Shown in pieces: positions 32,301 to 64,000 of a stretch of DNA of 64,000 nucleotides. Under the pieces are notes generated by a model. It saw nothing but the letters and a program-made list of their open reading frames with translations, was not told the origin of the DNA and ran no database searches. Position 1 is the stretch's first letter, and each line of letters starts with the position of its first letter. Position numbers and translations under genes: made by a program. Source of the stretch: Bactericera cockerelli (taxonomy: Eukaryota > Arthropoda > Insecta > Hemiptera > Triozidae); NCBI GenBank assembly GCA_024516035.1, contig CM044964.1, positions 18,047,084 to 18,111,083 on the forward strand. Direction: 5' to 3'.

Positions 32301-35300
32301 TATTTTTCACGTCATCATCTGTGACCTATTCCATGAAGCTTACAGCCGTATTTATGAACAGAAAACGCTGTTTGAGCATGGTCTGAAGCATGATTTCCTT
32401 TAATTTTATTGGCCAATACCTTCCTTGAGACATTGCTCCGACAAAATTCGCTGTTCATAAATACGGGTGTTAGTCCTGTGAATAAGGGAGCAATCCTGAA
32501 TAAGCAGTCCTGGACAAGGCGGGGGAAATGTGAGAAAGAGGATGGTGGGCTTGTAACTGGGTAATTACAAGCTCTATAAAGTGCCATTCTCGCCAGCACC
32601 CATTTCCCTGTCAGGCGAGTCTTTGGCGCCATAACCATTGCACACCCACTCCGTAGCGTCTGATCTCCAGAGGAGCGGCTACATCATCAACTCCAGATAA
32701 ATGGAGGAACCCATTCAAGTGTCAACGGCTTTCAAGGCGGATGAGCACGTATATGGAGGGCACTCTCTTTCCCTGAAGGCGGATGATTCGAAGTACTCGA
32801 ACAACGGCATGAGCTATGACCGGGAAGCAGCTGTCATAGTACTGTCTGTAGGTGGAGACAATGAATTGTCGGTACAGCTATAGTTTAGATAGTAGCAGGC
32901 GATTTTGGAATCCAAGATTACGGTTACTACACTGCGATGTGGTGGCAAGGAGAACCCTCCATATTATTAATCTCACGTGCAATAATTCTCTACAATGATG
33001 TCTCTATCTACTTCAAAAAAATCCGGGAGAGGACCTCAATCGGATTCCCGGGAGGTCCCTGATTTAGATATAGCCGTCCGTAAAGAAAGCATAAAACAGA
33101 ATGTTTTAAAAATTGGCACTTGGAACGTAAGATCTCTGGGAAAAACTGGAAAATTAGAAAATTTGATTCTCGAAATGACACGACTGAAAATGGATATTGT
33201 TGGAATAAGTGAAGTAAGGCAAGAAGAACCTACAGATTATTGGACTATCAACCACAGAGTCATCTATTCTGGCTATGAAAAACATATTGGGGGAGTGGGT
33301 GTTGTTTTAAACAAAGAATGGGGAAAACGGGTCAAAAGTATTGTATTGCTAAACCACAGACTGATGCTAATCAAGTTGTACATAAATGACAAAGAAGAAC
33401 TCACCATCATTCAAGCATACTTTCCAACAAGTGACACGCAGAAATACCCTGAGGAAAAAGTAGAGGAGGTATATGAGCAAATGGATGAACTGCTAGAATT
33501 GGTCAACGACAAAGACTCACTAATAATTCTTGGTGATTGGAATGCGTCTGTGGGAGGAAGTAGAAAAGATGATAATATCACAGGATTGTTTGGTTTTGGA
33601 GAAAGAAATCAAAGAGGACAGCGGCTTATCGATTTTTGCAAAGAGAAAGATTTCATTATCACAAACACGCTGTTTCAACAACCTAGTAATAGAAGATATA
33701 CGTGGACAAGACCAACTGACAAAAGAAAATTTCAGATTGACTACATCATAACAAGAAGAAAAGACCAAAAATGTGTTCTACAAAGTAAATCTTATCCAGG
33801 AGCTGATGTTAATAGCGACCATAATCTGGTTTCGATGAAGTTCAGACTCAAGTCAAGAAAACAATTTAGAAACGTGAGCAACAAAAAGAAATTTGATGTA
33901 ACCAAACTCAATATTGATTCACTTAAATCCTGTTATCAAGAAAATGTTAAAGAAGAATTGAATAATATTAGTGAAGTCCCTGATACCATTAATGAAAAAT
34001 GGACAGTATTTAAAAGCTCTATATTAAAAGCTGCAGAAAAAGCACTAGGAACACCACAGAACTTACCAAGAAGACCATGGATTACAAACAAGATAATTAA
34101 CCTAATTGAAGAACGAAGGAAAGTGAAGAATGCAAACAATATTGAAGGAAAAATCAAATACAGGTACCTGAAAAATCTAATCAACAGAGAAGCAAAAATA
34201 GAAAAAGAAAAGTGGCTTAAGGAATTATGTGAAGAAGTTGAAGAAAATATGAGGTCCGGAAGATTAGAAAAAGGATACAATATGATTAGGAAGTATTTTG
34301 GGAAAAGGAAAATGATGAGTGAATCAATCAAAGATGAAAATGGAAAACTACTTATAAATGAAAACGATATCGTGAACAGATGGAAACAGTATATTGAAAA
34401 TCTATATGATGACACAGATGAATTACAAGAACTGAGAATGGATGAAGAAGAAGAGATTGACGAACCAGAGATAAGTAGAGAAGAATTTGACCTTGCATTG
34501 AAATCCCTTAAAAACAAAAAGGCATGTGGTAATGACCAGATACCAGCAGAATTGTTAAAAGCTTTAGACGAAGACATGAAAGAACTTATGTTGTCAATGA
34601 TTAGGGAAATGTATGAAACTGGGATGGTACCAAGAGATTTTCAAGAAAGCGAAATTGTACTCATACCAAAGAAAGCGAAATCAAAGAAATGTGAAGATCA
34701 CAGAACACTTAGCCTACTATCTCATAGCTCCAAGGTTTTAACAAATATCGTCAAGAAAAGGATTGAACGGAAAATAGACGTAAATTTAAGTGAAGACCAG
34801 TTTGGTTTCCGATATGGAAAAGGTACCAGAGAAGCCATCCTATCTCTAAGGCTGATTGCAGATGAGAGCATTAGAGTAAAAAAACCACTCTATGTAGCAT
34901 TTGTTGACTTACAAAAAGCGTTCGATAATGTGAATTGGAATGTGATGATGGATATACTGAAAGAAATCGAAATAGGAAAGAAAGACAGAAGAATAATTTA
35001 CAATCTTTATAAAGATCAAGTAGCAGGTATCCAAGTAAAGAATAGCATAAGAAAAACAGCTAAAATCAAAAAAGGAGTGAGGCAAGGCTGCAACTTGTCA
35101 CCATATCTGTTCAATATCTATATTGAAAAGGCCATCAACGAGATAAAAGAATGCTGTACCGGAATACTTTTAAATGGAACTAGAATCCAGATGTTAAGGT
35201 TCGCAGACGATATTGCAGTACTTGCACCTGACGAAATCAACCTAAAAAGAACATTGGAATATATGAATGAAGTACTACATAAATACAAGATGAAAATCAA

Positions 35301-38300
35301 TATGGAAAAGACGGAAATAGTAATGTGTTCGAATACTGTAGACGAAATCAACATCAGAGTCAATAACAATGAACTGAAACAGAAGAACAGTTTCAAATAC
35401 TTGGGTAGCACTATTACGGAAGACGCTAAGAGTACAAAGGATATAAAACAGAGAATAGCGCAAGCTAAGGCTGCATTCCAATCCAAAAAAACACTTTTCT
35501 GCTCCAACAACTTGAGCCTTGATTTGAGAAAACAAATGGTAAAAACCCTGGTATGGAGTGTAGCCTTGTACGGATCAGAGACATGGACTATATCAAAGAC
35601 AGACAAGAAAAGAATAGAAGCTTTCGAAATGTGGTGCTGGAGAAGATTGGAAAAGATCAAATGGACAGAACATGTGAGTAATGAAAGAGTACTGGATATG
35701 GTGAACGAGAGAAGAACAATATGGAATACAGTTCAACAAAGAAGACATAAATGGATGGGTCATATCTATCGACACAACACCTTCCTTGTTAACATTATTG
35801 AGGGACAAAGACCTGGAACGAGAGGAAGAGGAAGACCAAGGATATCATACATGGACCAAATAATACAATACGCGGGATGCAGATCTTACTGTGAAATGAA
35901 AAGATGCACTTCAGAAAGAGATAAGTGGAGAAATATTGCTAACCAATCTTCGGATTGAAAACATATGATGATGAGTCTTTCCCAAACTACCGAAATGAAT
36001 TTTGTTGAATTTAGAGTAAAGGCAGAAGTAATTTTTAGGACTTTTTTTTTGAGTAATTTTTTTTACCTAATAACAACCACAAATTCAAGTTTTTCTCCTT
36101 ATTAGAAATCTCCATGTTTATTTATGTTTGTTACGGGTTGCAGCCTGAACGGTACATCCTAGAAACTTGAATTTTACAATGCTAATAGAAAAATTCAGTG
36201 GAGAAGCATCCTAACGACAGTGTAAAGTTTCGAAACTCTGAATTTTTTCTAAAAAAATGGACTATTAGAAGATATCGTCATTTTTTAAATTTCCTATAAA
36301 AATACATGGTAGGAGAAAAAGATCATTAAGAGTGCACGAATCATAGTATGCATTTGGAATGAATAAATAAAGTTCTTTGTCAACTGAAAATATTTTCTCG
36401 AGTACGGAATTATTTTTTTAAGATTCTACAAGAAAAGATTCTAAAATCTATCCAAAATATGACCGGGGGAAAATATCATTTAGATTTTAGAATGCACAAA
36501 GCATTGTATGAATTTGGAATGAATAAATAAAGTTCTTTGTCAACTGAAAATATTTTCTCGAGTACGGAATTATTTTTTTAAGATTCTACAAGAAAACATT
36601 CTAAAATCTATCCAAAATATGACCGGGGGAAAATATCATTTAGATTTTAGAGTGCACAAAGCATTGTATGAATTTGGAGTGAATAAAGGAAGTCATTTTG
36701 GTCTTTCTCGAGAATAAAATTAATTTTGAAGATTCAACAAAAAAATATTAAGGGGATGAATAAGAAAACATAGATTTTAATAAAATTAAAAGTATTTATA
36801 TTGAACAAGTCCTACAATAAAGGGAGGACGGGGACACACACCATCATTTCTGCAAACTTGCTAACTGTCCAATCATTTCCAATTCTCAATTGAAGTCGAT
36901 CAGAAATCACATTTTGATTTTGAATCTTTGTGCCATTTTCTGATTTTTGTCAAAGACCCATATTCACATTTTGATTTTGAATCTTTGTTCCATTTTCTGA
37001 TTTTTTTTTGTCAAAGACCCATATTCACATTTTGATTTTGAATCTTTGTTCCATTATTTTCTTATTTTTTGTCAAAGACCCATATTCACATTTTGATTTT
37101 GAATCTTTGTTCCATTATTTTCTAATTTTTTGTCAAAGACCCATATTCACATTTTCATTTTGAATCTTTGTTCCATTTTCTATTTTTTTTTTTGTCAAAG
37201 ACCCATTTTCACATTATCATTTTGAATCTTTGTTCCATTTTCTTATTTTTTGTCAAAGTACCATATTCACATTTTGATTTTGAATCTTTGTTCCATTATT
37301 TTCTTATTTTTTGTCAAAGACCCATATTCACATTTTGATTTTGAATCTTTGTTCCATATTCTTATTTTTTGTCAAAGACCCATATTCACATTTTGATTTT
37401 GAATCTTTGTACCATTATTTTCTTATTTTTTGTCAAAGACCGATATTCACATTTTGATTTTGAATATTTGTTCCATTTTCTAATTTTTTGTCAAAGACTC
37501 ATTTTCACATTTTGATTTTGAATCTTTGTTCCATTTCTGATTTTTTGTCAAAGACTCATTTTCACATTTTCGTTTTGAATCTTTGTTCCATTTTCTGATT
37601 TTTTGTCAAAGACCCATATTCACAATTTGATTTTGAATCTTTCGAGATATTTTCTGATTGCTTGTCGAAGAACCAAATATGGTTTCTTGATGTTGAATCG
37701 GTGAGCCATTTGCTAATGTTGAGCCAAAAAACATATCACTAGTTTTTTTTGCGTCATCAATTCGCCTGTCCTTATGAATCATACTAGTTGCTGTTCTAAC
37801 CAAAAAACCTTCCCATTTTCCGTCAATGCTGCCTCATTGACTTGGACCTGCATCAAGCATGTCCCGAGACACTGCAAACAGATACTTGGACGTCTGGCGA
37901 ATCTCCGCATACTTGGCCTTGACGATGTCAATCTGATCGTCCAATGCGGATGCCATGTCAGTCCATGTCTCAATCAGCTCGCGGTCCTCGCAGTCTCGAT
38001 CCTGCTGAGCGCGAATGTAGGACCAAGTGCGTTCTTTTCGCCGCAGCATATCCTTGAGGACGTAGCGATACCATGTCGCATCCTTGCAGACCTGCGCCAT
38101 TTGCAGTTTCAGATCCTCTAATTGCTCGACCTGGCCAAGCATGGTTGCGAGTCTCTCGTCTATTGTCTCTTGCATGTCGGAGGCTCTGTCAACACGTTCA
38201 TGCTTCTTGAACCACGGCCATTTCATCTGAGCGTAGCGGTTGCGAATCCAACGAAACATGGTGATGTTTTTATTCTTAGGAGACGGATTTAGTTTTTTGC

Positions 38301-41300
38301 TATTGTAAAGAAATTTTAATAGAAATGACTTTTTCACAAAAATAATACTGGTTTAAAATTTCAACAAGTTTTCCCAACATTTGAGCCATCATATTAAAAA
38401 AAAACAATAATTGTATGACCATTAAATTTATACAGAGTCAAAAAATTGTCTAAAATTTCTACTAACATAAAACTTTGTCTGATAGATTGGTGGATTCAGA
38501 TCTATTTGGTAAATGTATTTAGATCTTGAACAAGTGTTTGCTCTAAAATTCTTTAAACTATTTTACCACCCTCACTTAAGTTTACTCTAAATGCAAATCG
38601 AACCCAGGTCCAAAAGTTTAGAGTTAGATAATAATAATAATACTCTTTAGTGAAAGGTTAATGGTTAAAGGCGAGGTTAATGCTCAAAGCACTTTCTACC
38701 ACATAACCCTCAGAGTCTTATTATTATTTGGTCACAAACTCAAACAAATGAGGAAAAAAAAAACGAACTAATACTTCCAATTTCTAATATTAGAAATTTC
38801 TCGGAAGTAACATGCACTGGGTGGGATTCGAACCAACGGATTCATACACTACCTGAATTACCAGACTAGCCCGTTAACCACCTGACTACCAGTGCACGGT
38901 TACATGAAGGTTTTGTGTTAAAAAGAGATGAATATTTAAGTTTTAACTAATGGACCATTTACTTTCCGTGTCCGGAATAATGATGTGTTTTCTATTGAAA
39001 TATTCCACACATTTGTGAAAACATCATGTATTGTGTGAGTAATATACAGCAATCCTGTCAATCGAAACTCCGCGCCGACAAAAATTTGTATTCATAATTT
39101 GGTTACAGTTCTTTGTAAGTGATACCTACCGGTGCGCTCGTGTTGACCCAGCACCTAAATGGGAAGTATTGTGTCACTTCTCGCCCATCAGAGGGGAGGC
39201 ACACTACGGGATGGGCAGGCTGCAACACAGACCACAAGCGTCAACAGTAGCTCTTGTTTCATGGCTACGAAATAAAAAAGGCTGTGAAACTCATCTTTAA
39301 AAATAATAATAAAAAAAAAATAATAAGATTAGTTCGGGGACTCGGGAATTTTCATAAAAACCAATGTATGCATTTTTTTTTTTTTTTTGTGAATGGAACC
39401 ACATTATTGCACTAATATTACTCGCTTATTTATTGACCTTTTACAAATTTTGAAGAAATACATGCTTTCTCATGTGTAGGTATTATCAGATGTATACAGG
39501 GCCTCCATAAAGTCTCACCGAAGCCTGCATTTCTCGAGGACCACTCAAAATATCAAAAAACACAAGAACCCGTATTCCTTTTGGGGATTAATTTTCAGCA
39601 ATTTTTTTCTTTTGCCTACACGGCCTCAGTCAGGCTGGGCATGGACCAACTTTAAAATCTTAAATAGAATGGTATGTGGTACGACTTGTGGCACATTGTT
39701 CTTAAGGTCTAATCGAGAAAATTTCTTTACAACAAATTTCAGTGAGCTACGATATACCGTTCTCGAGATACAGGGTCGGACGTCCTGCGTAATATCCATA
39801 TATTTTGATTTATATATCACCGTAAACCGTAAATTCCAGAATAATGAAATTTGTTAGTAATAACTCCTTATGACGAAACCTTTCGAAAACGCTATAACTC
39901 GACTTATTCTGTTGATGTTAGTTTCTGGTCGGTTTCGTCAGCCAGCCGGACGAACATTCAAAAATTGTTTAACTAAAAAACAAATCAAGTTGTAACTTGT
40001 TCGAAAGGTCTTGCCATAAGGAGTTATTATCATTAAATTTCATCTTTCTTTATTTTACGGTTAACGAGTTACAGGTCAAAATATATGGATATTACGCAAG
40101 ACGTCCTGTATCTCGAGAACGGTAAGTCGTAGATCACTAAAATTTGTTGCAATGGTCTTCTCTCGATAAGACCTTTAAAAAATACGCCACAAGACTTATC
40201 ATTCTATTTAAGATTTTAAAGTTGATCCATGCCCAGCCTGGCTGGGACCGTGTAGGCAATTTTTTGGCTGAAAATGAATTCTCCTAAAAAATTGGCTGAA
40301 AGGAATACGGGTTTTAGCGTTTTAATAATAAATAATATTAATTCACATAAATATTATTATTTTACGTATCAATGGTTAATAATAATAATAATAGAACGAT
40401 ATGGTTATGTTATGAATAAAAAAAAATACATTACAGATTATGAAATGGAATCCGACGTACCTTGAAAATGGAAGAATGTTAAATATCACAGTCACATGGT
40501 AACAAGGAGACATTACTGAGCAAATATAGAAACGTGTGCCAAATACCTAACAGAAAAGGAATGGAAACCGATTGAAGAATAGTGATTGTGAAGAATAGTT
40601 ATTGCATTTTATTTTGATTTAAAAGAGGAATATGAGGAGGGTGTGAAAATAAAGATTATCTTTCATTTATATCTGAATTGTTTGCGACTTGATTTTTAAA
40701 TTTATATTTCTTCCCTTCACTCTTTTTATTTCCATATCAATGATCAAACTTTTCATTGAAAAATGTCTCATGTCTCAAGAGATTGATGTTTTTTTTGTGG
40801 GTATAACGTCGCTTTCAACTGCATGGTCATATCACGACGGAGGTGTTACCCTCCATTCGCAGGAATTCACAAACCTGCTACTCACATTAATCTCACCCAG
40901 CCTGGGTTGGGTCGGAATGCCAGTATCACGAAGTCTTCACCTCGCTGGACGTTGCTTGAGGGATTTAGGACTAGTTGTGTAAGCTGGGCGGGCACCAGCT
41001 CAAGATTCTTAAAGAGAACGCTATCAAATCTGAGTTCATTTTAAACGTATTTTGTCGACATCTTGCGTGGTTCTCGAGATATCAGGGGTGGGATGAAACT
41101 TTAGGCTCACCCTGTATGTGGCAATAGCAAAGCTTAGCCAAGAGATTTTAGTCAATATTGGATTTCTGTGTATTTCATTGAGAGTTTCTGAGTATTTAAA
41201 ACTAAATCAAAACTTTTTTGTGCATTATTTTGTATTTCAATATCGCATGATATCTCTATTTAATTACGTCTGGGGGCTGGGTCTCTGATGAGCACAATAC

Positions 41301-44300
41301 AATACAATGCAATACAACACAAAACAATACAATACTCTATTTATCCTCCAAGAACAAGACTGAAAGATTGACTTTAGGCCAGTTTCCCACTGAGCGAAAT
41401 ACAATTCATGATCCATTCTTCCTTTATTTCATAAAACCAATAAATGAGAGTTTGTTTAAACTGCCAGGAAAAGGGAACAGTTTGGTGCTGCACCCACAGT
41501 AAAAAAAAGTATTTCCGACCTCAGTAGCTTTATCGATAAGGCGGTGGACTTGTAACCTGGAGGTCGGTGTTTGAAGTCCCGGTTTCAGCGTAGATTTGGT
41601 AAAGCTAGTTTGAGTAGCTGTGGTATCACAAAAGTGACTTAGGTACACAAATATGATAACTTAAAAAAAAAAAAACTTCTTCCAATTTGATTTTTCAGAT
41701 CAGCGCACAGTTAGTCTTCAACTAGTTAGCGTCGCTTTCCAATGCGTCCACTCCTCCCTGTACACCTGTCTAAACCTGACAGCGACCTCCCTATCCGGAC
41801 ACATACATAGGCGAAACCATCTCAACCAAATCAAATACGTCAACAATATTCTGCAATCCGAAAATGTACTAGAAAAAAGTTCCTGTCAACAAGATGTGAA
41901 ATTGTCGAGTCCTTCTCAATCAACAAGGAACATATTTTCAGAGTCGGGCCAAAAACCAGAAAGTAATTCCCTCCCAGTTCTCTCACTTCTAGTCCAAATT
42001 CCGTCTCTCTGTAAGGAAAATGCTACGTCAAATTCTTCTCCCGACGTGGCCCCTCCCCTTGAAAATCACCCCTGCGCAAAGGTTCCGCCCATTCTGGTGG
42101 TCAAGCTGAGAGGGGTGTCTGCTCTGGGCGATGTCCACCTGTACGAGATGGTGAATAGCTGGCAGAAGCTGGCACTCGGTGCCGCCAAGTCTGAGGAGTG
42201 TGTCTTCCAGGATGCTGCGAACACACGGCATAGTTCCGGGTAAGTGTCTTTCTTTTAAGATGAGTGTTTCACAGCCTTTTTTTATTTCGTAGCCATGAAA
42301 TAGGAGCTACTGTAGACGCTTGTGGTCTGTGTTGTAGCCTGCCCATCCCGTAGTATGCCTGCCCTCTGATGGGCGAGAAGTGACACAATATTCCCATTTA
42401 AGTGCTGGGTCAACACGAGCGCACCGATTACAAACAATTGTAATCAAATTAAGAATATAAATTATTGTCGGCACGGGGGATCGAACCCGGAGCCTTCCGC
42501 ATGGCAAGTGAGTGCTTAACCATTGAGCTAATTGCGCAATTAGCTCAGTGTCTTGTCTCAGTCTCTATTTGTGGCCGGCTCTTGGTCCAGATGTGAAGTA
42601 AGAGACAAGTTCTCTGAATTCCGAAGCGGAAACCAGCCACGGAAAACAGAGCATTTCTGGGGACGAAGTGTCGGTATTGAACTACTTATAATAATAATAA
42701 TAATAATGTGTTTCTCTGTGTTATTACATCATAATTTTAGTGGGTAGCGCAGAATTATAGGACATTTCCGTATCTTTAATATCCCAATATCTTATTTTTG
42801 CCTTTAATTCTGCCACTGGTCGCTGCTAACATCAAAGCAGCTACTCATTTTTCATCACGAGGTATGAGTGGACCCCGAACATTCAAGTACAGAGCAGAAA
42901 AAATCCTGCCCCGCTGGGGATCGAACCCAGGTCACCGTACGTGCAATGCCTAGCGCTCTAACTCACTCGGCCACGGTGACTACTAACTAGTTATAATAAT
43001 AATACCCTTTAGTGGAAGGTAACCACCAGGCAAGGTTAATGGTCAAAGCATTTTCTACTGCCTAACCTTCAGTTCTAATGGCCGGGTCGAGATGTGACTG
43101 CCGGGTCCTGGCTCATGTGGATTTTAGGCACATGGAAAAAAACGCTCCACATTGGGAAAAAAAACGTAAAATTTTGGCGGAAAATAATAATTACATTTTG
43201 CGAATGTCACAGTCAATAACCTTTTGTTTATGGTTTTGATAATCCAAAATTAAGTAATCAAAAGTGGGATGGATCAAGTCTATCTATAAACTCATGCAAG
43301 TGGGATGAATCAAGTCTATCACCTGTAATTTTAATTGCCTTGTAAATAAAAATGAAAAGTGATTTTCGATGAACTTTAAAAAAAGTAATCAAAAATGTCT
43401 TCAATTTCTCTTGTTCGTGCAGACTCGGTCTATCTCGGCAAGTGTCGAGTGGTGCTTCCACCTCCTCGGGTGTCTTCGCCACGCCTCCTGTGTCTCTAGA
43501 CCACGCCTCCTCCCCGGTAGCCCCGCCCCCCGAGCAGGACTCTGTGTTCAGCTCCCCGCCTTTGTTTCCAGAACCATCTGGCGCCAAGGGAATGGACACT
43601 ACAGAGCCATCGGTAAGTTAGACCTAATTTTACACTTAACTTGATCATCATCATCATACGGTGCCGGCATCGTGAACGATGGTAGCCAGACAGTGGAGGA
43701 ATGACTCAGCACTTCTACCACTGTCTTTACAAGGAGGCTAATAATTGACAAGGGCCCCCAGAACCAAGCCAATGCTTAACCACTGAGCTGCTATGTATCT
43801 TGTATCCAGGGTTAAGAGGCAGAGAATGCCTAAGGCATTAACTTTGCCCCGGATTGCAAGACAAATGTAAATTTAAATATTTTTTTTCTATATTTTATTT
43901 TGTAAATATTGTTAATTTTTTTCATCTCTGTTAATAATTTATTGTTGATTGTTTTGTATAAAAAAATGAAGTGTAAAAAAAAAAATGAAAAATAATAAAT
44001 AAAAACTAGAGCCCAATTTAAAAGACAGTGTCCTTGGATGAAATCTAATCCTGTTTTATACTTCGGCCTTATTTATTTTCTTCTTTTATTAATTTATATT
44101 CTGGTAAAATAGCACCACTGTTCGTTACTCACTGCTTAAACTCATATTTTTTTTTTTATGGGCATAAAATCATTTAGATGTACTTTAGAGTAAGCCAAAC
44201 GACAATACTAATGTCCTAACAAGGCATACAAACTAATAAACAATACAGACTTAACTTTTACATTTTTTATTGTCTCCCAGAAGTCTAGCCTGCTCAGACA

Positions 44301-47300: not shown

Positions 47301-50300
47301 TCTTGTTATCGAAAAAATTAACCAAACTTGAGTTATTCAAGATTTAGAAAAAAAATTGGTCGAAAAAAAACCACCCTGTATGTAATATTTTTGTTTAAAA
47401 AAGTACTCGGGAATCATTTAGAAGTAAAATTATCAAATAAAATTCAGGTCGATCCATTTAAAAATCGAAAGTTGACACCTCAATTTCTGACTTTTGAACC
47501 ACCCTGTATAAAAAAAATTTCATAACTGAAACCGCATAATTAGCACATGTACCCTAGATTTTTTTATTTTTCAAAAACTCTTTCAGGGGCCGAGTAATTT
47601 GAGGTGTCCAAGTTTGGTGGGACACCCTGTATACAATAAAAATGAAAAATAATAGAAAATATTTGAAAACATCTGTCCTAACTAAAGGGCGGGGTTATTG
47701 CCTATGGCAAAAATCTCTAAAAAAATGTTCGTTAATCAACAATCAACGTTAATCAACAACAACAACATCAAAAAAAAAAATCAACATTTTTTTAAATTGT
47801 TATGTGATTATAAGTAATTGGATGTTGATCAGCCATTGTAAGGTCAACATCTGTTTTATTATTACAATAAATAAATACATTGAATTGAATTGAATTGAAT
47901 CATCATAGGGTGGCATCATCGTTAACGATGGTAGCCAGACAGTGGAGGAATGACCCAGCACTTCTATTACTGTCTTTACAAGGAGGCTTATAATTGACAA
48001 GGGCCCGCAGAACCAACCCAATGATAGTCTACTCCCTGTTTATAGTCCCCCAGCCAGACTTGTCGTTCGTCAATATTCTCTTTATAAAAAGTAATTTAAA
48101 ATAAATTAAAATGCTGCTGTTAATTTTGAAAGAACTCTGTGTGTATTTTTATTGTTTGAAGTGTAGATTCATCATAATACATTGTACAAGTAGCTTCCAA
48201 AATCAAATTCAAGAGAAGGTCCAAGGGCGAGTATCCGTTTTGGCAGTCCATTAATTTTCCTGTTATAAGTTAACATTCTGCTGGTAATTTTGAAATAACT
48301 CTGTGTGTATTTTTATTGTTTGCAGTGTAGCTTCATCATATCCCATTGTCCAAGTAGCTTCCAAAATCAAATTCAAGAGGAGGTCCAAGGGCGAGTATCC
48401 GTTTTGGCAGTCCATTAATTTTCCTGTTATAAGTTGACATTCTGCTGGTAATTTTGAAATAACTCTGTGTGTATTTTTATTGTTTGCAGTGTAGCTTCAT
48501 CATATCCCATTGTCCAAATAGCTTCCAAAATCAAATTCGAGAGACGGTCCTAGAGCGATTATCCGTTTTGGCAGTCCATTAATTTTCCTGTTATAAGTTA
48601 ACATTCTGCTGGTAATTTTGAAATAACTCTGTGTGTATTTTTATTGTTTGCAGTGTAGCTTCATCATATCCCATTGTCTAAGTAGCTTCCAAAATCAAAT
48701 TCGAGAGACGGTCCTAGAGCGATTATCCGTTTTGGCAGTCCATTAATTTTCCTGTTATAAGTTAACATTCTGCTGGTAATTTTGAAATAACTCTGTGTGT
48801 ATTTTTATTGTTTGTAGTGTAGATTCATCATAGTGCATTGTCCAAATCGCATCCTAAATCAAGTCCGAATGGGGTTCCGAGGGTCATATCCGTAAAATCA
48901 ATCCTTTTTTGCCTGTGTTAGTGTTTTTTCTACTTAACATTGACGACTGGAAGCTAATTCTGATTCAATTTGACTGTTGATGCTCTCTTCTATGTTCTGT
49001 ACGAGTTGTACTCGACACGTATGGTGGTGTATTATACTGGACTTGATATGCTGAGAATCCAGTAGGACCTCATTTAGTCATCTTGTGTAATCTGCCCCTC
49101 TTCATAATCTACACCCGCACTTGCATTGATTGTTTATCCGCTCTCTCTGGTGTTCGCACACTCCTCGGGCACCTGCATCAACAGTCAACTTCTATGTTCT
49201 CTTATTTCTCCCCATGCCAAAGCCAGGAGATGACGGAATTAGGTCCGAGCAGGGAGTCGGTTGACTCTTTCATTGCCCCTTCCTGTTCCTCAGAGTCTGC
49301 AATGTCGTCCAACTCCTCTTGTATGAAGAAAGGTTCCATAGAGGACGCATCGTGGCATTCCGATTTGTGCTTAACAATGAGCTTGCAAGTATCGTCTAGC
49401 TCTTCTCTGCAATTTTGACAGCACCAGCCAAGAGAACAGAAGCATTTCATTATGGCACACAGTACACAGCACCCATGAATTGGGTCCATTTTTGGGGAGT
49501 AAAGATGCTCTTTTTACTATGAATCTGAAATGATAAGATAATAATATAATATCGCCTTATTTTTACTGCCCGATTAGTATTATGAAGTCCCATTATTTCA
49601 GCAGTAAGCCCAAGACGTATTATTATGTGGTAAATGGTAAAAATCCTAAATGGGAGGATAACTTGGCATGTCCCGCCTGGGTTTCGAGCCCGCGACCTCT
49701 GGAATCTCTGGATTCACACAGTGCCGCCTTTACCACTGAGCTACCGGGACAGAACAGAATCATTCTAATGATTCAAAGATAACAAAATGTACTACCGAGT
49801 CCACCTGTCACAATTATTATTATTTAACACTTTATTGGTCAACTACATGATACATTCAACAAAATATAACATAAAAAAAGAACACAATAGAATATGTAGT
49901 GAACCAAGGGGCGAGGTTTAAGCCTGTGGCTTTCTCTTCCACCGAATACCATCTAATGTTATTGGTGTGTAAGCAAAAAAGATTCTTATATTTTTGCTCT
50001 GGGACGAAAATTTCTGGGGATATAGAGGTGGAGGGAATGGAAGTAGGTGTACAAAATTACACTCCTGAAGGCTCCACCATTTAGTTTTTTCACAAAATTC
50101 TTTTGATGTGTGGTTCATGGGGGTCAGTTTTCATTATTTTTTGATATCTTCAATTTCAACCGGATTATTTTTTGATATCTTTTTCGTTAACTTAGAAATA
50201 TCGAAAAATTCATGGAAATCAATCCGCTATATTGATATAAGTACTTGGAGTTTCCTCTACAAAATAAAATTTAAAAAAAGTCATTGTAGGAGCCTCCACA

Positions 50301-53300
50301 GGGGTGGAACTTCGTTCATCCATTTCCATTTGAATCCCGGTAGGGTTAGCTTTTTTCGGCTCTTTTTCTAAAATAACAGGGGGCCTTGAGCCTACTCATA
50401 CGCATTAAAACATTCACTTACCCAATATACAGACGGAAGCGCGTCTAGTCGTAGATTACCAGCAGCAGTGACGTGCAAGTAGAACTACTTGGCAGTGCTG
50501 ATAGCGGCCGGTGTAGCGAAGCCGCCTTGCAAATCTCGGCGAGAGCTTGCAGGGGTCTTCTTGCTTGTGGAGGTTGAAGTCTATTCAGATGAAATCTATT
50601 CTTTGAGAGTGTAGATGATTTGGAAAAACTATTGAGATTTATATGTTTAGAAAATTATTTTTCGAAGTAATGATTTTTTCTTAAGTTAGTATCGAACAAA
50701 TTATTGGCTCTCATATATATTTTTTGGCCTAATTATTACTTAACACGTATGAGACGGGTCCTATTTTCTATAGTTTGTACGCTGGGACGGCTTCAAATTA
50801 GGGTATGTGTTCCAAATATGACAACAACAACAAAAAATTGGGACGGGCGAGTACAAAAATATATTAAAAATTGCATTATCTGTGCCCACCGGTGGGTCAC
50901 ATTACAAGGGAATTTGAAGAAAAAAAAGTGACCCACCTGTGGGCACGCCGTCTCATACGTGTTAATAATAATTATAATAAATCATTGGTTTTATTTTTCA
51001 TACTTTTTTGCATACAGAGGACCCATCCTAAGTCATTTTTATTTCTCTTCTAAGATTCATTCCTATTACTTCCTATAAATAATATTAGAATTCGGAAGTA
51101 TTGTTTTCGTTTCTGTATTTTTCCCCCCTTGGATTTCAATTTCGTATTTCTGGCCGTTTCACAACCTCCTGAGAAACTTTGGTTTAGTGTCTGTCTGTCG
51201 GTCTGTTAAATACATTCTTTCTAACGCGCAGAAACTGAACGGATTTAAACGAAATTTTGTAAACATATTGAAGATATATTGTGGATTCTCCCATTTTAAA
51301 TTAATCGACTTCGCACTTGCGGTTCTTTGAGATAGAGACCATGCGCCTGATCTCTATTACTTCCGAGAAATTTCTAATATTAGAAATCGGAAGAATTGTG
51401 TTCGTTTTTGTAAAAAAAAAAATATTTTTTGCTCCGATTTCAATTTTTTTTTCATATTTCTGGATGTTTCATAACCTCCTGAGCAACTTTGGTTTTGTGT
51501 CCGTCTGTCGGTCCGTCGATCCCTCGGTCTGTTCAAAATATTCCTTGTAACGCGCAAATCTCAGAAAGTACTCAACGGATTTTGATTAAATTTTGCAGAG
51601 ATATAGGAGACGTTCTGTAGATGGTCCCATTTTAAATTCATCAAATTCGTACTAGCGGTTCTGGGTGAAAGAGACCATGCGCCTGACCACTAACTTTTTA
51701 CTTAAACGCTTATATCTCGTGAACGGTACACCCGATTTTGATGAAATTTTGTATGACAGACAATATTCTTCTCAATCTCCCCTTCTGTTCTCAGACAAGC
51801 TGAACTTCCCCTGGAGTGTGAACATAAGCAACGTGGTCTCCTACACCACCCTAGCTGGCCCCGCCCCTGAGAGGAGGATGCAGCTCTACCTGCTCAAGCC
51901 CCTGGATGTGAACTGCTCCATCGCTGTGAATGTGAAGCGAGATGCTGTGGATGTGGAGACGTCTCAGTCTGGTAGGTTTATTATTATTATTATTATTATT
52001 TTTAAAGATGAGTGTTTCACAGCTGTTTTTATTTCGTAGCCATGAAACAGGAGCTACTGTAGACGCTTGTGGTCTGTGTTGTAGCCTGCCCATCCCGTAG
52101 TATGCCTCCCCTCTGATGGGCGAGAAGTGACACAATACTTCCCAATTATGTGCTGGGTCAACACGAGCGCACCGGAAGGTATCCCTTACAAACAATTGTA
52201 ACCAAATTAATAATACAAATTTTTGTCGGCACGGGGGATCGAACCCGGGACCTTCCGCATGGCAAGCGAGTGCTTAACCACTGAGCAAATCGGGTCATAT
52301 TATAGATAAATGTATTTTATTATTATTATGGCATACAGCGCAAGATAATTTATTTTTTATCCGTACAATACAAATTACTAACATCGAGAATAAACCATAT
52401 TCTTTCGACGTTAGCTAAATCGCTTTCAATCATACACCAAACTTTGTGAGAATGTGGCCTGTACTCGTGGCACATGATTGCACTTCGGAAACATTGAAAT
52501 ATCCTGGAACCATTTTTTATGACGAGGTCATTTTTTTATTAGGAGGACAAAGTAACGTACAATATTTACAGTATAAAATGAATACAAAATAAATAGGTAC
52601 ATGATAAAATAGTTTGGAAAAAAAAAAAAAAAAAACAAAGAAGAAAATAATACTAATGTCCTAATTAAAGGGAGCGTGCAAAGCATAGCGCGCTAACTCA
52701 CTCTGCCACTGTGGCTACTTAATTATTATTATTGGCCTCGGTGAAATAACGTTATGAATCATTTCTAATAACTAATGAGGTTTACTGCTCTACCCCAGCC
52801 CTCCCCACCCCCGAGTCCCCTGCATAGCGTGGCCTTCACTATCCACCTGAACACTTCTCGCGTGGACCTCAACATCTGCGAACCCCAGGTAGATCTGCTG
52901 ACCCAGCTGCTGGCTGGCCATGTGCTGGAGTGTGCATCGAACCTGCGAACCCTGGTCTCCTGGTCGGGAGACGCCGCCAGGAGTGGGATGGCCGGTAGGA
53001 GACACTTTCCTTTGTTATAACTTTGTTTTCTTGTTCATATTTGAAGACCATTCTTCAATAACACCTTACAATATTAATGTTCTTCGTGAGACTCCTACAT
53101 CACTAAAAATTAAACTTCAGAACCTTGTTTCCATCCGCGCGATCAATGCGCAGAGCCAACCTTTATTTAGGTCCTTTTTACTTCCGAGAAAGTTCTAATA
53201 TTAGAAATCGGAAGTATCGTGTTCGTTTTTGTAAAAAAAAATATTTTTTTGCTCCGATTTCAATTTTTTTTCTTTCTTGTTCATATTTGAAGACCACTCT

Positions 53301-56300
53301 TCAATAGTGATCTAAGTGCCAAAAAGTTCATTTCGAGATAATTTTTATTTATTTAGTTACACTTTATTTTTATTTTTTTTTACAAAACAGTCAACAACAA
53401 CAAATTATTAACAATAAATTTTATAAAAAAAAAACTTAGAAACGTGTACATAAAATTAAAGATACGTAATAACGTAATACGTCTTGGGCGTACTGCTTAA
53501 TAAAAACGGACTTAATAGTCCTAATCGGGCAGTATAAATAAGGCGATAATTTTATTATTATTGTATTTTACTGTATTGTATTTTATTGTATTGTATTTTA
53601 CTGTATTGTATTGTAATGTATTGTATTGCATTGCATTGTACTGTATTGTATTGTATTGTACTGTATTGTGCTCATCAGAGATCCCGCCCCCAGACGTGAA
53701 GGTCTCAGCGCTGGTGCAGTGGACTCTGGCCCGCCTAGGACTACACCTGCGCATCGTAACATATTATTGTATTGTATTGTACTGTATTGTATTGTATTGT
53801 ATTGTATTGTATTGTATTGTGCTCATCAGAGACCCCGCCCCCAGACGTGAAGGTCTCAGCGCTGGTGCAGTGGACTCTGGCCCGCCTAGGACTACACCTG
53901 CGCATCGTAACATATTATTGTATTGTATTGTACTGTATTGTATTGTATTGTATTGTATTGTATTGTATTGTACTGTATTGTATTGTATTGTATTGTATTG
54001 TATTGTATTGTATTGTATTGTATTGTACTGTATTGTATTGTATTGTATTGTATTGTATTGTATTGTATTGTATTGTATTGTATTGTATTGTATTGTATTG
54101 TATTGTATTGTATTGTATTGTATTGTATTGTATTGTATTGTATTGTATTGTATTGTATTGTATTGTACTGTATTGTATTGTATTGTATTGTGTTGTGTTG
54201 TATTGTACTGTATTGTATTGTACTGTATTGTATTGTACTGTATTGTATTGTATTGTATTGTATTGTATTGTATTGTACTGTATTGTATAGTATTTGTATT
54301 GTATTGTATTGTATTGTATTGCATTGTATTGTAATGTATTGTATTGTATTGTATTGTATTGTGCTCATCAGAGTCCCCGCCCCCAGACGTGAAGGTCTCA
54401 GCGCTGGTGCAGTGGACTCTGGCCCGCCTAGGACTACACCTGCGCACCGTAACATATTATTGTATTGTATTGTACTGTATTGTATTGTATTGTATTGTAC
54501 TGTACTGTATTGTATTGTATTGTATTGTATTGTATTGTATTGTATTGTATTGTACTGTACTGTATTGTATTGTATTGTATTGTATTGTATTGTATTGTAT
54601 TGTACTGTACTGTATTGTATAGTATGTATTGTATAGTATTGTATTGTACTCTATTGCATTGTATTGTATTGTATTATATTGTATTGTATTGTGCTCATCA
54701 GAGACCCCGCCCCCAGACGTGAAGGTCTCAGCGCTGGTGCAGTGGACTCTGGCCCGCCTAGGACTATACCTGCGCACCGTAACATATTATTGTATTGTAT
54801 TGTATTGTATTGTATTGTATTGTACTGTATTGTATTGTATTGTACTGTATTGTGCTCATCAGAGACCCCGCCCCCTGACGTGAAGGTCTAAGGGCTGGTG
54901 CAGTGGACTCTGGCCCGCCTAGGTCTACATCTGCGCACCGTAACATATTATTGTATTGTATTGTATTGTATTGTATTGTATTGTATTGTATTGTGCTCAT
55001 CAGAGACCCCGCCCCCTGACGTGAAGGTCTCAGCGCTGGTCCAGTGGACCCTGGCCCGCCTAGGACTTCACCTGCGTACTGTGACGTCACGGCCCGGGCA
55101 GGAGTGCCGCAAGATGTCCCTACAGATGGAGGAGCTGATACTGTCCATGGACTGCCAGCCACCCTCCTACCAGATGGTCAAGCTCAAGGTGGCCTCTGCC
55201 CAGATGTTCCACTTCAAGAGGTGAAACAAATTTATGTATTTTATTTTATTTTAATTTTTTTAACACTTAGACGACCGGGTCTACCACCTGTGGTACACGC
55301 ACGTTCGTACGGAATGAACCGGGTGTACCATCGGTGGTATACACATAGCCGATAGCCGTATTCTTGCCGGACCCACAAGAGAATTCACGAAAAACCATGC
55401 CGGTCGTCTAAGTGTTAATCTCTGTTTACACACTATAAAAACAAGGAGTAGACCAGCATTGGCTTGGTTCTGGGGGCCCTTGTCAATTATTAGCCTCCTT
55501 GTATAGACAGTGGGAGAAGTGCTGAGTCATTTCTCTACTGTCTGGCTGTCATCGTTCACGATGACGCCACCCTATATGATGATTACACGCATATTATATG
55601 CAATTGCGTAAACAGGTAAGAGGATTTTAAATTAAAAAAAAAATATTACAGGGGAAAAGATAAAGCCTCTTTACACATTTCTTTAAATGAGTTAATATTA
55701 TTACTAAGGTCTAAAGTAGAGGAATTTGCGTTGTAAGTTATGAGGGAGGAAATCAATGGAAAGTCGAGGTATATCATTATTAACAGGCCAGCCGAATGTA
55801 AAAAAAAAAAAGATTACATATCAAAAGCTAAGTAGGTTACATTTAACATTACATTTTTATTACATAATTATCAAAAGCACAATAGTTTATAATATAATTA
55901 TCAAACATTACATTTTTTTTTTAATTTGAGTTTAACGTTGTTTTTAATTGCATGCTCATATCACGACGGGGGTATATTAACCCTTCATTCGCTAGAAACT
56001 CACAAACCAGCTACTCAAATTAACCTCACCCAGCCTGAGCGGGGCCGGGAATAGCCAGCATCAGGAGGGTTCGAATTTGAATGGACAACCATCAAAGTCC
56101 TATCCTCGCTGGACGTTTCTTAACTTCTCGCAGCTTTGTTAATAGCTTATTATTAACTCCCCTCTACTCTCTACATCATTCATAACCACTTCCATGGAGT
56201 ATGAAAAAAAAAAAAAAAAAAAAAAAAAAATGCAAAAGAAAAACAGAAAAAAAGAAGGAAAAAAAAATGTATTTAAACTGATAGATATGCTGTGTACTGG

Positions 56301-59300
56301 CAATCAGCAAAAATGCTGACAGCTTCTTTGTTGTATTTTTTTTTTTTTTTTTTTTTAAGTGGGGTTTAACGTCGCTTTCAACTGCCATGGTCATATCACG
56401 ACGGGGGTTTTACCCTATATTCGCAGGAAACTCACAAACCTGCTACTCACATTGACCTCACCCAGCCTGAGTGGGGCCGGGAAAAGCCAGCGTCACGAGA
56501 ATTAGAATTTGAATGGTCACCCATCCAAGTCTTAACCTCGCTGGATGTCGCTTAACTTCGGTGTTCTGAAGGGAACCGGTGTATTCAACATGCCATCGAC
56601 GCTGGCCCTGTATTTTTTTGATAATATATATAACATTTGTTTCTCTCTGCACAGAGCGAGTCTGGAGGATCCCTGGCTGCTAGGGGACTACCGCGGCGTG
56701 ATCATGAAGGCCAATGAGTTGGAGTCGCGCCCTCCAGGGGGCGTGGCGGACGAGTCTAATGGGGGCTTCCTGAGTGTCACCCTCACGCGGGCCAACAGCG
56801 ACAACCTGCACTCCAAGATAGGGACCCGGGATCGAGTCCAGAAGTTCAACAAGGTAAAAATGTGGTTGGATGGAAGAGGTCAAAAATTGAGAATCCTGCC
56901 ACATTAAGGGCGGAATTAATAGACAACATCAATAACTTATGTCGTTGGTAAGTGTCGATTTTCCCTATCTTATACAGTACGCAATCCGTGACTTAGCGCC
57001 ACAGAGGTATTACAAAAACGTCTATTAATTCCGCCCTAAATAAATCAAAAAATAATAATAAAAAATAGGCATGAGACAATGCAGGGTGTCCCGGAATTTA
57101 TGATCCACTCAAATATCTCGAGAACGCCTTAAAACTTTGAGAACTAATTCAATTATTAATAAACGACGTGTCATAACAATCTAAAACCAATATACTTAAT
57201 TTCTATTTACTCATATTTTACCTGCTTTTATCTGGTACCCAAGTAGTACATCTTCCGTACCCAACTAGTAATTTTCACCTGCGTGTTTGGTACCCAAGAA
57301 GTAGTTCTGTACCCAAGAAGTACACACCGAGAAAAAATTCTATCCCATCGGTATCCTACTGAATGCAATATGTTGTCTCGCAACGTTTCTAGCTCCGCTC
57401 TACCTTTGTAATCAAATAAGATCCAATCTCATTCACTGAATCATTGGTTCACAACATTGTGAACACTTCCCAAAATTCCACCCCAATAGCTGCGAAACAT
57501 TTTGAAACAATATGTTGCACTCAGTGGGGTCCCGGCTCGAATATTATAATATTAATTCTCTTTAGTGGAAGGTAACCATCTGGCGAGGTTAATGCTCAAA
57601 ACCCACAGAATTTCATTATTATGAGTTTAAAAATCAAATGATTGAGGAAAAATTCATGCATTCCAAGATTTCCACAGACGGGACCCGATGTACAGATCAC
57701 GGATCCACGCGCTGGATTTTTTACATTACAAGTCTAGCGCCTTTATAACAAAACATCAACTAACTAGGTTTGGTAATGTTCATTTTTTTTATTAACAAAA
57801 TAAATTTTATTTTATTTTGAACTGCTCTGAACAAAGAGTTGCCAACTGACACAGTATACAATTCAAACATTCTTGTCATTAGTTATTTAAAAATTTCAGG
57901 GTAGAATGAACTTTTTTGAAGATGAAATTATTTCAGCAGCATCTTTGGGGACAGCTCTTATGAGTACATATGGCGATGGATAATGTTGAGTGTATCCCTG
58001 AGAATTGTTATGCATAATTCTTGGATCTGCTTTTTCTTGATGTTGTGTTTCTTGAATAAATTAACAAGAGAAGATGAAGCACTACCTCGTACACCAAACC
58101 AGAGACCATGAACTTCCCAGTTGGATATTCCATATTTTTCCTTGAAGTAAGGGATGGTAGTAAGGGATAAAAGTTCATTTATGTAATCGTCCTCTCTGTT
58201 TTCAGTTCCTATCCGTCCCCCCCGAGCATTTCAGCCACATCACCGAACTCATAGTCAAGGTGCAGCCCCTGGACTTCCATCCTCCCCCCCTCCACCCTCG
58301 GCGCCTTCCTCAGCATCCTCTCCCCTCTCCTCCGCTCCTCCCGCACCTCCCCCCACACACCCCAAACAGTTGCTCACCTCCAAGTCTGCCACCTATCTGG
58401 GCTCCGACAATCTTGAAGCAGAGCCGAAATTCGTTAACCAATCTTCAGGTTCCGATGTAAAATCTTCAGGTTCCGATGTAAAATGTTCAGGTTACGATGT
58501 AAAATCTCCATCCGATTACCTTCAATCTTCAGGTTCCGATGTAAAATCTTCATCCAATTACCACGGACAGCATGTAAAATCTGCATCCGATTACCTTCAA
58601 TCTTCAGGTTCGGATGTAAAATCTTCATCCGATTACCATGGACAGAATAGCGCTGCCACTACAAAGACATGCCTTAATTCTTCCTATGGTAAAGAAAACA
58701 CTGGAACGATTTCACAAGACACACTGTACTGTCCCAACGTTGGGAAAGCAAGGGACGCTGCGGAAGAAATTGGAGAAAGTCTTGTGCAATCCGTCCCGCC
58801 GCTTCAACCATTGGGAGATCGGTTTACGAAAATCCCCAACGAAGGCCGTTCGCCGTTTACAAATGTAAAAATTCCGCAGAGTCATGAAAATCTCACCGAT
58901 TTTCCGCATTCGGATGTTCCCAATATCACTTCTAGTCCGAACGAAATCAGTTACGTTGATCGTTTTCTCCAAGAGAAAATTAATCAAGATTCTTCTAGCG
59001 AGAAATATCCCAGCAAGGAAGTGTGTTCCACAGGTGTAATGACACCCATTGAGACGACTGAAACTGACACCTCTGAAGTCGATACATTGTCGGGTTTTCA
59101 TGAGCCTAGGAGCAGTGCCGTCGCGCGTCCAAGCCCTTTCACTTCTCTAGTTGGGAGGAAAAGAACACCGCCCGGGGGCTTTGGGTCGCGTCGGTCTAGA
59201 AAAGTATCATCTACCTCCGCAGAATCCTCGGATTACGCGTCTGTTCATCGGAAAATCTCGCATGTTTCCGCCGAAAAATCTTCGGAAACAGTTCAAGAAC

Positions 59301-62300
59301 ACTTCGGAAGTTTACCGAATCGAAACGTCCCAGAATTGACTGAACAATTATCGCAGAATTTGGTGGAAACGTTTTCTTCCCCAGTGGCTCCCTCGAGTAG
59401 CTTATCTTATTCACGAGTGGTGAACGAACGGGATGTTGCGTTGCCTAAGAAGCACCGCGCAGGATCTCACACCCCTCCCGTCATGAGTCACCCCCCTCCC
59501 TCATTCAACCAAGGTCATCGTGACCATCCGGAAAACCCGTCCTCACACTATCCGTCCGCTAAAAAACTGCCAAAGGACGTCCCAAATTCTTCCAACTTCC
59601 GCAGAACACCCACGCCTTCAATACTCAAGAAAACCTCCACCTCGTCCTCACTAGGCAACGAGTCCTCGAAGAAAGTATCTATTGATGTGCCTCCCGCGTG
59701 CGTTCACAATCCGGCAGGATCCCCCGCCGACCAGACGGCCAAAGTTCCGTTCCTGTCGACAGCAAAACTTCCGCTGCTGTTCTTAGACATGAAAAGTATT
59801 CGCGTCATCATTCCCGTGGAAGGCTATGGAGGGGAAAAAAGAGGAACGTGTTCTGAACGTGAGGAAAAATCAAAAGGAAATGGAGCTAGTGGTGAGAGGA
59901 AAGAGACTGAAAGTGGCGAAAAACGAACACTCGGTAACTTTTCTGTCAAAAATAGTCATGGCATGGAAAATTTACAATCCAAACACAATCAATCGAGTGC
60001 CTCCTGTGCCAAATCGAGTGCCTCCTGTGCCAAATCGAGTGCCTCCTGTGCCAAATCGAGTGTCTCCTGTGACTCAGCCAGGAAAGGATCTTCTGAGGGT
60101 CGTTCCACTTCGGCAACTATTCCTAATCCTTCCTTGGCCCTGTCTGAGATCCCCCACGACACCATCATCCTCTCCTTCTCCTCCATCTGTATTTCGCCCC
60201 AAGTGGAGAACCCCCTCACCCGCATTGAGATGCGACCAGACCTCATGGGGCTAGCTCGCAAGTTCAGCGTGGTTCACGTCCTCGGCTCACAAATCGAGGA
60301 CCGCCAGTACTCGTTCGAAGTGGGCGCTGTCAAAATAAATTCAGGTTCGCATACTCTTAGTATTTTTAGGACATTAAGCTTTATTAGGTAGAACAAAAAA
60401 TATATACAGTAGAACACAATGAAATATAAAGAAAAACAAAAAGATTAAACAAATATACAAGAAGGAAAAAAAGAGAGAAATGTCCTACCTAAAGGGCGGG
60501 CTTATTGCCTGTGGCAATCTCTTCCACCCAACTCTTTCTTTTTTTTGCGCTTCAGTGTAATACTTCTGCTCCTGACTTATTTTTTTAATATCGGATTTTT
60601 TTGTAAATATACAATTATACATACATAAGAATGTAAATATACATAAGAATGTCAAAATGCTTATTCTTTAATATTGGTAAAAGATTAGTTTTTTTAATTT
60701 AAACGGCATCGGCAGTCTAGCAACGTTTCTATGGCATTTTTTTTCTTTTTCGAACACCAGTAAAATAAAAAGTCCTAGGTGGGTGTAAACTATTAACAAA
60801 ATATATGTATGTCCCTTCACTGGCCAGGTATATGGAGTGAGTTGGAGCGCGGTACGCTGCTCTCTCGAAGCTCGGAGCTCGAACTAAACGCGGCCCTGAT
60901 CTGGAACTCGGGCCAAACCCCCGGGGCCCCCCCTAACACGCTGCCCCTGCTACGGGAGTTCAACATAAGCGCCACGCTCGCACCCTGTATAGTGTTCCTG
61001 TATGAGGCGGTGCTGGTAGCTGGGACGTCTCTAGAGGTGAGAACTGTATATGCGGTGCAAAAAAGAAACATTTCATAAAGTTATACCACAAGAAACCTAG
61101 GATTGCTAGAGAAATGAAGTTCACGGCAATTATGAACTTTGTGTACTGTATAATCGGAAATGAGGTGCCGAAACCAGGATGGTAGTGGTGGTGTCAGAAG
61201 TAGGATCCGTTCGGGGTACTAAGTAATTGAAACTTGAAAAAAAAAAACCGTCTTAAGCTCCGCGTCATTTGTGTAGTTTATTGTTTGTGAAATGAAGTAC
61301 TTAAAATTTAAATTGCACAGGACTCTCTAACCACTTTTCAAAATGAGCTTTTTTTCCCTCATGAACAAATTAAAATGTAAATACCATGATTTGAACCCAA
61401 TTGCTAATGGACGGATTTAATCATGTACTTAACAAACAACATTATACACAATTAAATTACTAATGGCCAGTTAAGTTTTCGATTAATCCGTCCGTTAGTA
61501 ACAATGCATTCTACAATAAAGCCTAATTGCATAGTTGCTAATGGATAAATTGACAGATTGAATTATGAACTTAAACATTTTTATACACAAGCCAATGGCT
61601 AATGGCCCATCATGTTTACAAATTAATCAGTCTATTAGTAACTATGCAATCCATAATAAGTTTTGCATAATTATTTAACCCTCCCCCATTTCAGTTGAGT
61701 GCAGGCAAAGACATCTGTCTCTCTCTCACGCTAGCCCAACTTCATCTTCTCTCCCATCTCTGCCGACAACTGCATGCTTCCCTCTCTCCCTTGGGGAAGC
61801 ACAAGATCAGTTCGCGCGGTGGAACAGCACAATGCTCAACTTGCTTTGAAACAACTCCAAGCGGTGTTATGGTCCCGTTTGAAATGCTGATCACAGGAAG
61901 ATCTCTTCAGGTGGAGTTGTTTGAATCTGAGGTAGGTGGTTGAGTCAAATTAATTTGAGGTATTGTTCCATTTAGTAACTGAAAATATAAATCAATAAAG
62001 TGTTGTAAAATATTAGACGAAAACAAAATACATAATAAACTTTGTTTCGTGTTAATATAGGCCGGTGGCCGCTGGCGAGATTGACACAGTTGAAAGTTCT
62101 TGTTTCCATAAAAAGGTTCCGTTTTAAATTCAACCAGTTGTTCTGTTAACTGTAGATCTCACCAGATCCTTTCTTCGAATTAATGATGCCATATTAAGAC
62201 CTTTCATATACAGCACACTAAAAGGCGCCAAGCTGTCCCGGCTTTCAAAATTTTTGGACCTTAGGGACCTCAATAAACAGGCCTACGAAATTTCATCAAA

Positions 62301-63820: not shown

Positions 63821-64000
63821 CTGTCCCGGTAGCTCAGTGGTAAAGGCGGCACTCTGTGAATCCAGAGATTACAGAGGTTGTGGGTTCGAAACCCAGCCGG
63901 ACAAGACAAGTTAGCCTCCCATTTGGGATTTTTACCACTTAATAATACGTCTTGGGCTTACTGCTGGAATTATGGGACTTATTAGTCCTATAATCGGGCA
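63821..64000 (+). mobile_element. tRNA-derived SINE, Family B (cut by window end)
   Basis: Head TGTCCCGGTAGCTCAGTGGT (A box), GTTGTGGGTTCGAAACCCAG (B box), then GTTAGCCTCCCATTTGGGAT, ACTTAATAATACGTCTTGGG and ATTAGTCCTATAATCGGGCA. The same tail occurs in four other places in the window. Confidence 0.88.

Follow-up and report, generated by a model that had tools for sequence, protein, structure and literature searches.

Six identical 3' splice sites in a TATTG array upstream of a Vps13B exon of Bactericera cockerelli

How does a conserved exon come to be preceded by serial copies of its own 3' splice site, and which of these sites would the splicing machinery use? The question is raised by a 64,000-nucleotide stretch of Bactericera cockerelli DNA (contig CM044964.1 of assembly GCA_024516035.1; hereafter the window), where the acceptor TGCTCATCAG|AG occurs six times in one array, with exon starts at 53679, 53830, 54372, 54702, 54863 and 55004. 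By homology the host gene is Vps13B, as the initial annotation of this DNA had proposed. With a 2,503-aa concatenation of the window's exons as query, 311 residues of the spliced product aligned at 60% identity with a protein of Diaphorina citri (P0001) and at 29% with the termite VPS13B (the Zootermopsis protein P0003, which carries that name). A tblastn search of the window with the D. citri protein gave 27 rows between 8263 and 62946, including both the exon in question and its neighbors; two rows fall in truncated copies (copies 3 and 4, below) and the other 25 follow gene order. The exon is called exon 20 after the initial annotation; 17 alignment rows lie upstream of it (copies excluded), making it about the 18th or later. 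Exon 20 alone gave one candidate and no match in the protein collection, full-length proteins probably being outside the length range. Searched singly against Pfam, exon 20 had no match and exon 19 matched only VPS13_M, below the cut-off (E 0.42); no match was found among solved structures at E up to 1. Elsewhere in the window, two frames upstream of Vps13B (591-806 and 3269-3445) resemble GATA-type zinc fingers, a 164-bp tandem repeat (48101-48862, 4.6 copies) whose unit consensus contains the likewise acceptor-like TTTTTATTGTTTGCAG separates two exon blocks, and tandem repeats of 21, 42 and 75 bp are found at 58440-58645 and 59991-60071 in the large open frame after 58206.

The features around exon 20 are the following.

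52799-52994, + strand: exon 19 (same numbering), phase 1 end, donor GTAGGA at 52995; from tblastn with D. citri P0001, residues 1262-1323
53475-53560, + strand: terminal 3' part of a dispersed repeat that has (ATT)n as its tail, abutting the array on the left; from similarity matches and alignment
53559-55003, + strand: (TATTG)n array, carrying five truncated copies and reaching the functional acceptor; from TRF rows and shuffles
53669-53769, + strand: copy 1, with acceptor 53669-53678, 77-bp head 53679-53755 and junction GTAACATATTATTG
53820-53920, + strand: copy 2, with acceptor, 77-bp head 53830-53906 and junction
54362-54462, + strand: copy 3, with acceptor, 77-bp head 54372-54448 and junction; also tblastn row 54386-54454
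54692-54792, + strand: copy 4, with acceptor, 77-bp head 54702-54778 and junction; also tblastn row 54716-54784
54853-54953, + strand: copy 5, with acceptor, 77-bp head 54863-54939 and junction
54994-55221, + strand: intact exon 20 (55004-55221) with its functional acceptor (54994-55003) and the donor GTGAAA; from tblastn, spliced frame open
55004-55022, + strand: first 19 bases of exon 20 (AG + ACC CCG CCC CCT GAC GT), encoding ETPPP

The repeat unit includes the exon's own splice site, TGCTCATCAG being identical in all six acceptors. Each of the five copies has a head of 77 bp ending in the same junction, GTAACATATTATTG, where the intact exon has GTGACGTCACGG. The general structure given in the initial annotation (five partial exon heads with acceptor in one TATTG array upstream of the functional exon, each about 77 bp long and ending where the functional sequence is replaced) was found again, the length being exactly 77 bp. 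Its start for copy 1 (53689) needs correction by 10 bases, to 53679, and the open coding sequence that it assigned to every copy is present in four, copy 5 having an in-frame TAA. The distribution of variants that it described is also seen, with CCCCCAGACG in copies 1-4 and CCCCCTGACG in copy 5 and the real exon. Distances from acceptor to acceptor are 151, 542, 330, 161 and 141 bp. A 20-mer of the array unit has 130 matches with at most one mismatch, 129 of them in the array region and one at 41295; a 22-mer across tail and acceptor has seven matches in the window with at most three mismatches, six being the array and exon acceptors and the seventh lying at 41279-41300. Neither word was matched in 100 shuffles. 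The dispersed repeat to the left of the array has 83-86% matches at 49539-49622, 11332-11416 and 19606-19691, all on the minus strand, and an 81% match at 63943-64000 (four other matches in the window altogether).

Low-complexity arrays are prone to bad assembly, and copies 1 and 2 differ at only one of 87 bases, as might be seen if the copy number or the length of the array were wrong. An artefact of this kind is nonetheless very improbable: private substitutions are found in copies 1, 3, 4 and 5, the five spacings are all different and one junction is common to all copies, which simple collapse or duplication errors do not produce. Two classes of copy at the least, 1-4 and 5, must exist. Pairwise, the copies differ at 1-7 of 87 bases; thus they are not exact assembly repeats.

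The substitutions bear on how the copies arose. Fourteen sites of the 77-bp head vary among copies and exon. Five of these (exon bases 38, 47, 65, 74 and 77) set every copy apart from the exon, each time by a synonymous third-position change. At eight others only one or two copies differ, and here two changes are silent while six alter the protein, one of them creating a stop (5/5 versus 2/8; Fisher p = 0.016). A random change would be synonymous with a probability of 0.30, so that the chance of five in five is 0.0025. This pattern fits a constrained real exon and freely drifting copies: the real exon, with selection acting on it, probably acquired the five synonymous changes once the duplication had taken place, and the copies would preserve an older form of the exon head. 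The one remaining variable site, exon base 14 (site 14), is also synonymous, with A in copies 1-4 and in an insert at 41 kb (see below), and T in copy 5 and the exon. Downstream of site 14, copy 5 is copy-type at all five diagnostic sites. Copy 5 thus combines an exon-type head (T14) with a copy-type 3' part, in line with the exchange with the real exon suggested in the initial annotation, and looks as if the real exon and a copy had crossed over, although repeated mutation could also account for its state at site 14.

Since one junction is common to all five copies, a single founding duplication is indicated. It would have joined base 77 of the exon to the left end of the array, giving ATATTATTG; the joined sequence is what is seen today, and the event is deduced from it. 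The left edge of the array now reads ATTATTATTG, beside the 3' end of the dispersed repeat, and the left breakpoint of the founding duplication resembles ATTATTATTG. To judge from the substitution pattern, the unit would then have multiplied through exchange within the array and within copies, the five copies having probably spread by tandem duplication and unequal crossing-over. The blocks surrounding copies 2 and 3 share 96% identity across 300 bp, and those surrounding copies 1 and 2 share 97% with a 151-bp period, as expected if unequal exchange had operated.

The seventh match of the 22-mer, which belongs to an insert in another intron, bears on the origin of the acceptor itself.

41254-41343, + strand: inverted insert, reading body and then (AATAC)n tail on this strand, GTCTGGGGGCTGGGTCTCTGATGAGCAC + tail

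A 9-bp direct repeat, CTCTATTTA, stands on either side of it, at 41254-41262 and 41335-41343. Direct repeats of at least 9 bp occur in about 0.05% of random placements, a figure obtained with limits chosen after the repeat was seen. At 41266-41335, in inverted orientation relative to exon 20, lie the acceptor, the first 19 bases of the exon and a degenerate TATTG tail, with CCCCCAGACG as in copies 1-4; the sequence of this insert type is GGGTCTCTGATGAGCAC(AATAC)n. The insert matches the exon over 29 nt at 93% (E 5e-7) and, with its tail, copy 2 over 70 nt at 93%. 5'-truncated retroelements are marked by a short body, a tail of microsatellite sequence and a direct repeat. On the opposite strand such an insert reads as a T-rich tract and then CAG|AG, like an Alu in antisense orientation. 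The acceptor junction therefore recurs as an independent insertion with its own direct repeat, CTCTATTTA, and (AATAC)n tail. Because the same junction is found in this separate, inverted insert, the acceptor of exon 20 and the first five codons are probably not native to the exon.

The protein alignment can be read alongside. The alignment with the D. citri protein runs through exon 19 as far as A1323 (window position 52993) and resumes in exon 20 at D1330 (55018), residues 1330-1399 aligning to 55018-55227 at 67% in tblastn. In between, D. citri has DCHLQS where the window has ETPPP, which is encoded by the first bases of exon 20 and is absent from D. citri; conservation returns at DVK. The first 19 bases of the exon are those of the 41-kb insert with two mismatches. 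Conservation of exon starts as a control for ETPPP is circular, the AG nearest to each alignment start having been chosen, and carries no proof. The sequence comparisons suggest that the acceptor and the ETPPP codons of exon 20 derive from the 3' end of a retroelement. A short, 5'-truncated element with an (AATAC)n tail would have inserted antisense at the start of the exon; the (TATTG)n tract would come from its reversed tail, and the acceptor with about five codons from its 3' end.

Some observations sit less easily with such an origin. Apart from the exon locus itself, the 41-kb insert is the only copy of this sequence in the 64-kb window. No target-site duplication is apparent around the insert at the exon locus, the longest word shared between 53381-53580 and 55011-55045 being 5 bp; later amplification could have erased it. 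The homology of the 41-kb insert stops at about the same base as that of the exon, which would be a coincidence if the two truncations were independent. Conversely, the acceptor and ETPPP might be native and the TATTG tract a product of slippage, with the 41-kb insert arising afterwards as a fragment retroposed or template-copied from the array's antisense strand. The A that the insert shares with copies 1-4 at site 14 is compatible with descent from a copy, its homology stops inside exon sequence, and only one such insert is found in the 64 kb. This alternative requires, however, an antisense RNA ending within the array, and ETPPP is just the stretch at the exon 19/20 junction that is omitted from the D. 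citri alignments; a native origin is considered unlikely, although it is the foremost competitor of the retroelement reading.

Searches for the source of the element gave little. The insert sequence matched none of the viral or prokaryote contigs exactly, and further copies were absent from the 120 matches listed of 233 repeat-protein matches to its translated peptides (E up to 10), a result that says nothing about psyllids. Among 20 words scanned in these 120 listed proteins, only AHQR occurs, in P0033, and it is not next to a repeat, so that simple TATTG repeats in other contigs explain the repeat-protein matches listed. Words of the locus sequence searched for in papers were not found. A 990-codon open frame at 32986-35958 with endonuclease and reverse-transcriptase domains (Pfam) is apparently a non-LTR retrotransposon inside the gene. 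This frame was considered as the source of the tail and rejected, its 3' end reading ATGATGATGA, a different tail.

Which of the six sites would be used? All are identical over their last 17 bases. In the functional acceptor, 11 of these 17 are pyrimidines (11-16 in 14 control acceptors) and no YTNAY is found at 12-95 nt, a motif present in 13 of the 14 controls; the exon 20 acceptor is weak for this gene. The AG-free stretch upstream of each of the six acceptors measures 63 to >98 nt (17-81 in the 14 controls). Apart from position, what distinguishes the sites is what follows them. The initial annotation had proposed that GTAAC in each truncated copy could serve as a weak donor. On a matrix built from 13 donors of this gene, control sites being few and placed by eye, the copies' GTAACA scores 1.06-1.28, below all 13 placed donors (2.73-12.44, each left out in turn), and falls at the 76th-77th percentile of all + strand GTs in the window. 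The low score makes cassette exons unlikely. GTAAC was also weighed as a putative remote branch point serving the next acceptor, from which it lies 61 nt upstream in the case of exon 20, but it lacks the first pyrimidine and this role was set aside. Whether a copy is spliced in as a 77-nt exon or read through, a premature stop follows in all five cases; an exon begun at the copy 5 acceptor would be 359 nt long, with a stop 26 nt in. Only 55004 has a real donor within 218 nt and no intervening stop.

Since a real donor lies close behind it with no stop in between, 55004 is predicted to be the sole acceptor used to any extent. Exon definition would pair across the exon only that acceptor which lies closest to a real donor, and the spliceosome is predicted to bypass the copies in favor of the exon-proximal site. 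An intron-definition or first-come model would instead favor copy 1, given acceptors identical over 17 bases; the intron measures 684 nt to copy 1 versus 2,009 nt to 55004. Lacking an adequate donor and lying on the intronic side, the copies would be retained almost neutrally, save for occasional use as decoys that ends in premature stops.

The copies might, on the other hand, be active, as variable or decoy acceptors that lower Vps13B output through nonsense-mediated decay, length alleles of the array acting as a rheostat. Identical acceptors, the long AG-free stretches before them and the premature stop that follows whenever a copy is used are all compatible with such a role. There is also a precedent in the ABCA7 repeat array, where an isoform retains one repeat unit, with a frameshift, and the length of the array influences splicing (PMC5954066). 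By analogy, silence of the array in Vps13B is not guaranteed. The lack of an adequate donor in the copies speaks against active copies, however, as does their neutral-like drift (of the eight changes seen in no more than two copies, six affect the protein), and such activity is judged quite unlikely. The preferred explanation as a whole (an acceptor supplied by a retroelement, a duplication, exchange, and use of the exon-proximal site only) is held with slightly better than even confidence.

A second array of splice junctions is present at another exon of the same gene.

13756-14532, + strand: donor array, consisting of the last ~28 nt of exon 13511-13783 and the strong donor CAG|GTGAGT; exon identity from tblastn

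It comprises six units of 47 bp, the first of which forms the end of the exon, followed by about 21 units of 24 bp that carry the same donor, with 27 donor-like sites, 23 of which contain CAGGTGAGT, a sequence absent elsewhere on the + strand of the window. In the assembly, the first unit reads GCCTCCC, one C short of the other five units (GCCCTCCC or GTCCTCCC), and is out of frame; the missing C is either a sequencing error or a real frameshift. TRF arrays overlap one of 15 acceptors and one of 14 donors listed, some donor positions being approximate. In the acceptor array and the donor array alike, the additional units are found toward the intron.

The exon 20 locus amounts to a natural experiment, six acceptors with the same last 17 bases lying in one intron and differing only in position and in downstream sequence; it contrasts intron-first choice (the site nearest exon 19) with exon definition (the site nearest the real donor). 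In addition, the copies seem to keep an older exon head and so provide an internal outgroup for reading the evolution of the exon. If the retroelement origin is true, a splice site from a mobile element replaced that of a conserved exon and was then amplified. With an acceptor array and a donor array in a single gene, tandem growth of splice junctions may exceed what the few human cases imply. Splice-junction satellites could, on a wider and tentative reading that is possible but falls short of probable, be a recurrent and tolerated form of gene damage: Vps13B would have gained a retroelement acceptor, amplified six-fold, and independently a donor amplified about 27-fold, growth on the intronic side being hidden by exon definition. 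The exon-proximal copy would stay in use and the array would form a fast-changing reservoir that can rewrite the exon edge by crossing-over.

The initial annotation knew of no described case. No array of acceptors was found among the papers listed in searches of the open-access literature; for the general kind the claim is too strong, since examples are published. In human cystathionine beta-synthase, the c.844_845ins68 allele duplicates an acceptor together with 52 intron and 16 exon bases (PMC7490669). Like the exon 20 locus, it places an extra acceptor and the first exon bases beside the real ones; it has one extra copy against five here, and neither a microsatellite nor a retroelement is mentioned in the available part of the CBS text. 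The ABCA7 intron 18 VNTR begins with the exon 18 donor and has about 12 to 427 units of 25 bp (PMC5954066). As here, a tandem array starts from the splice site of the exon that it adjoins and extends into the intron, and its nearest likeness in Vps13B is the donor array at 13.8-14.5 kb; it differs from exon 20 in amplifying a donor rather than an acceptor, and in a 25-bp unit where that of exon 20 holds 77 bp of coding sequence. Another CBS repeat, the 31-bp VNTR c.1444_1467+7, crosses an exon-intron boundary and is present in 16-21 copies (PMC2630376). It sits at the donor side of its exon, unlike the array at exon 20. With antisense Alu exonization, the resemblance lies in a reversed tail that serves as pyrimidine tract and an acceptor within the body of the element; the difference is that here an element of no identified family would have taken the place of a conserved exon's acceptor before being amplified.
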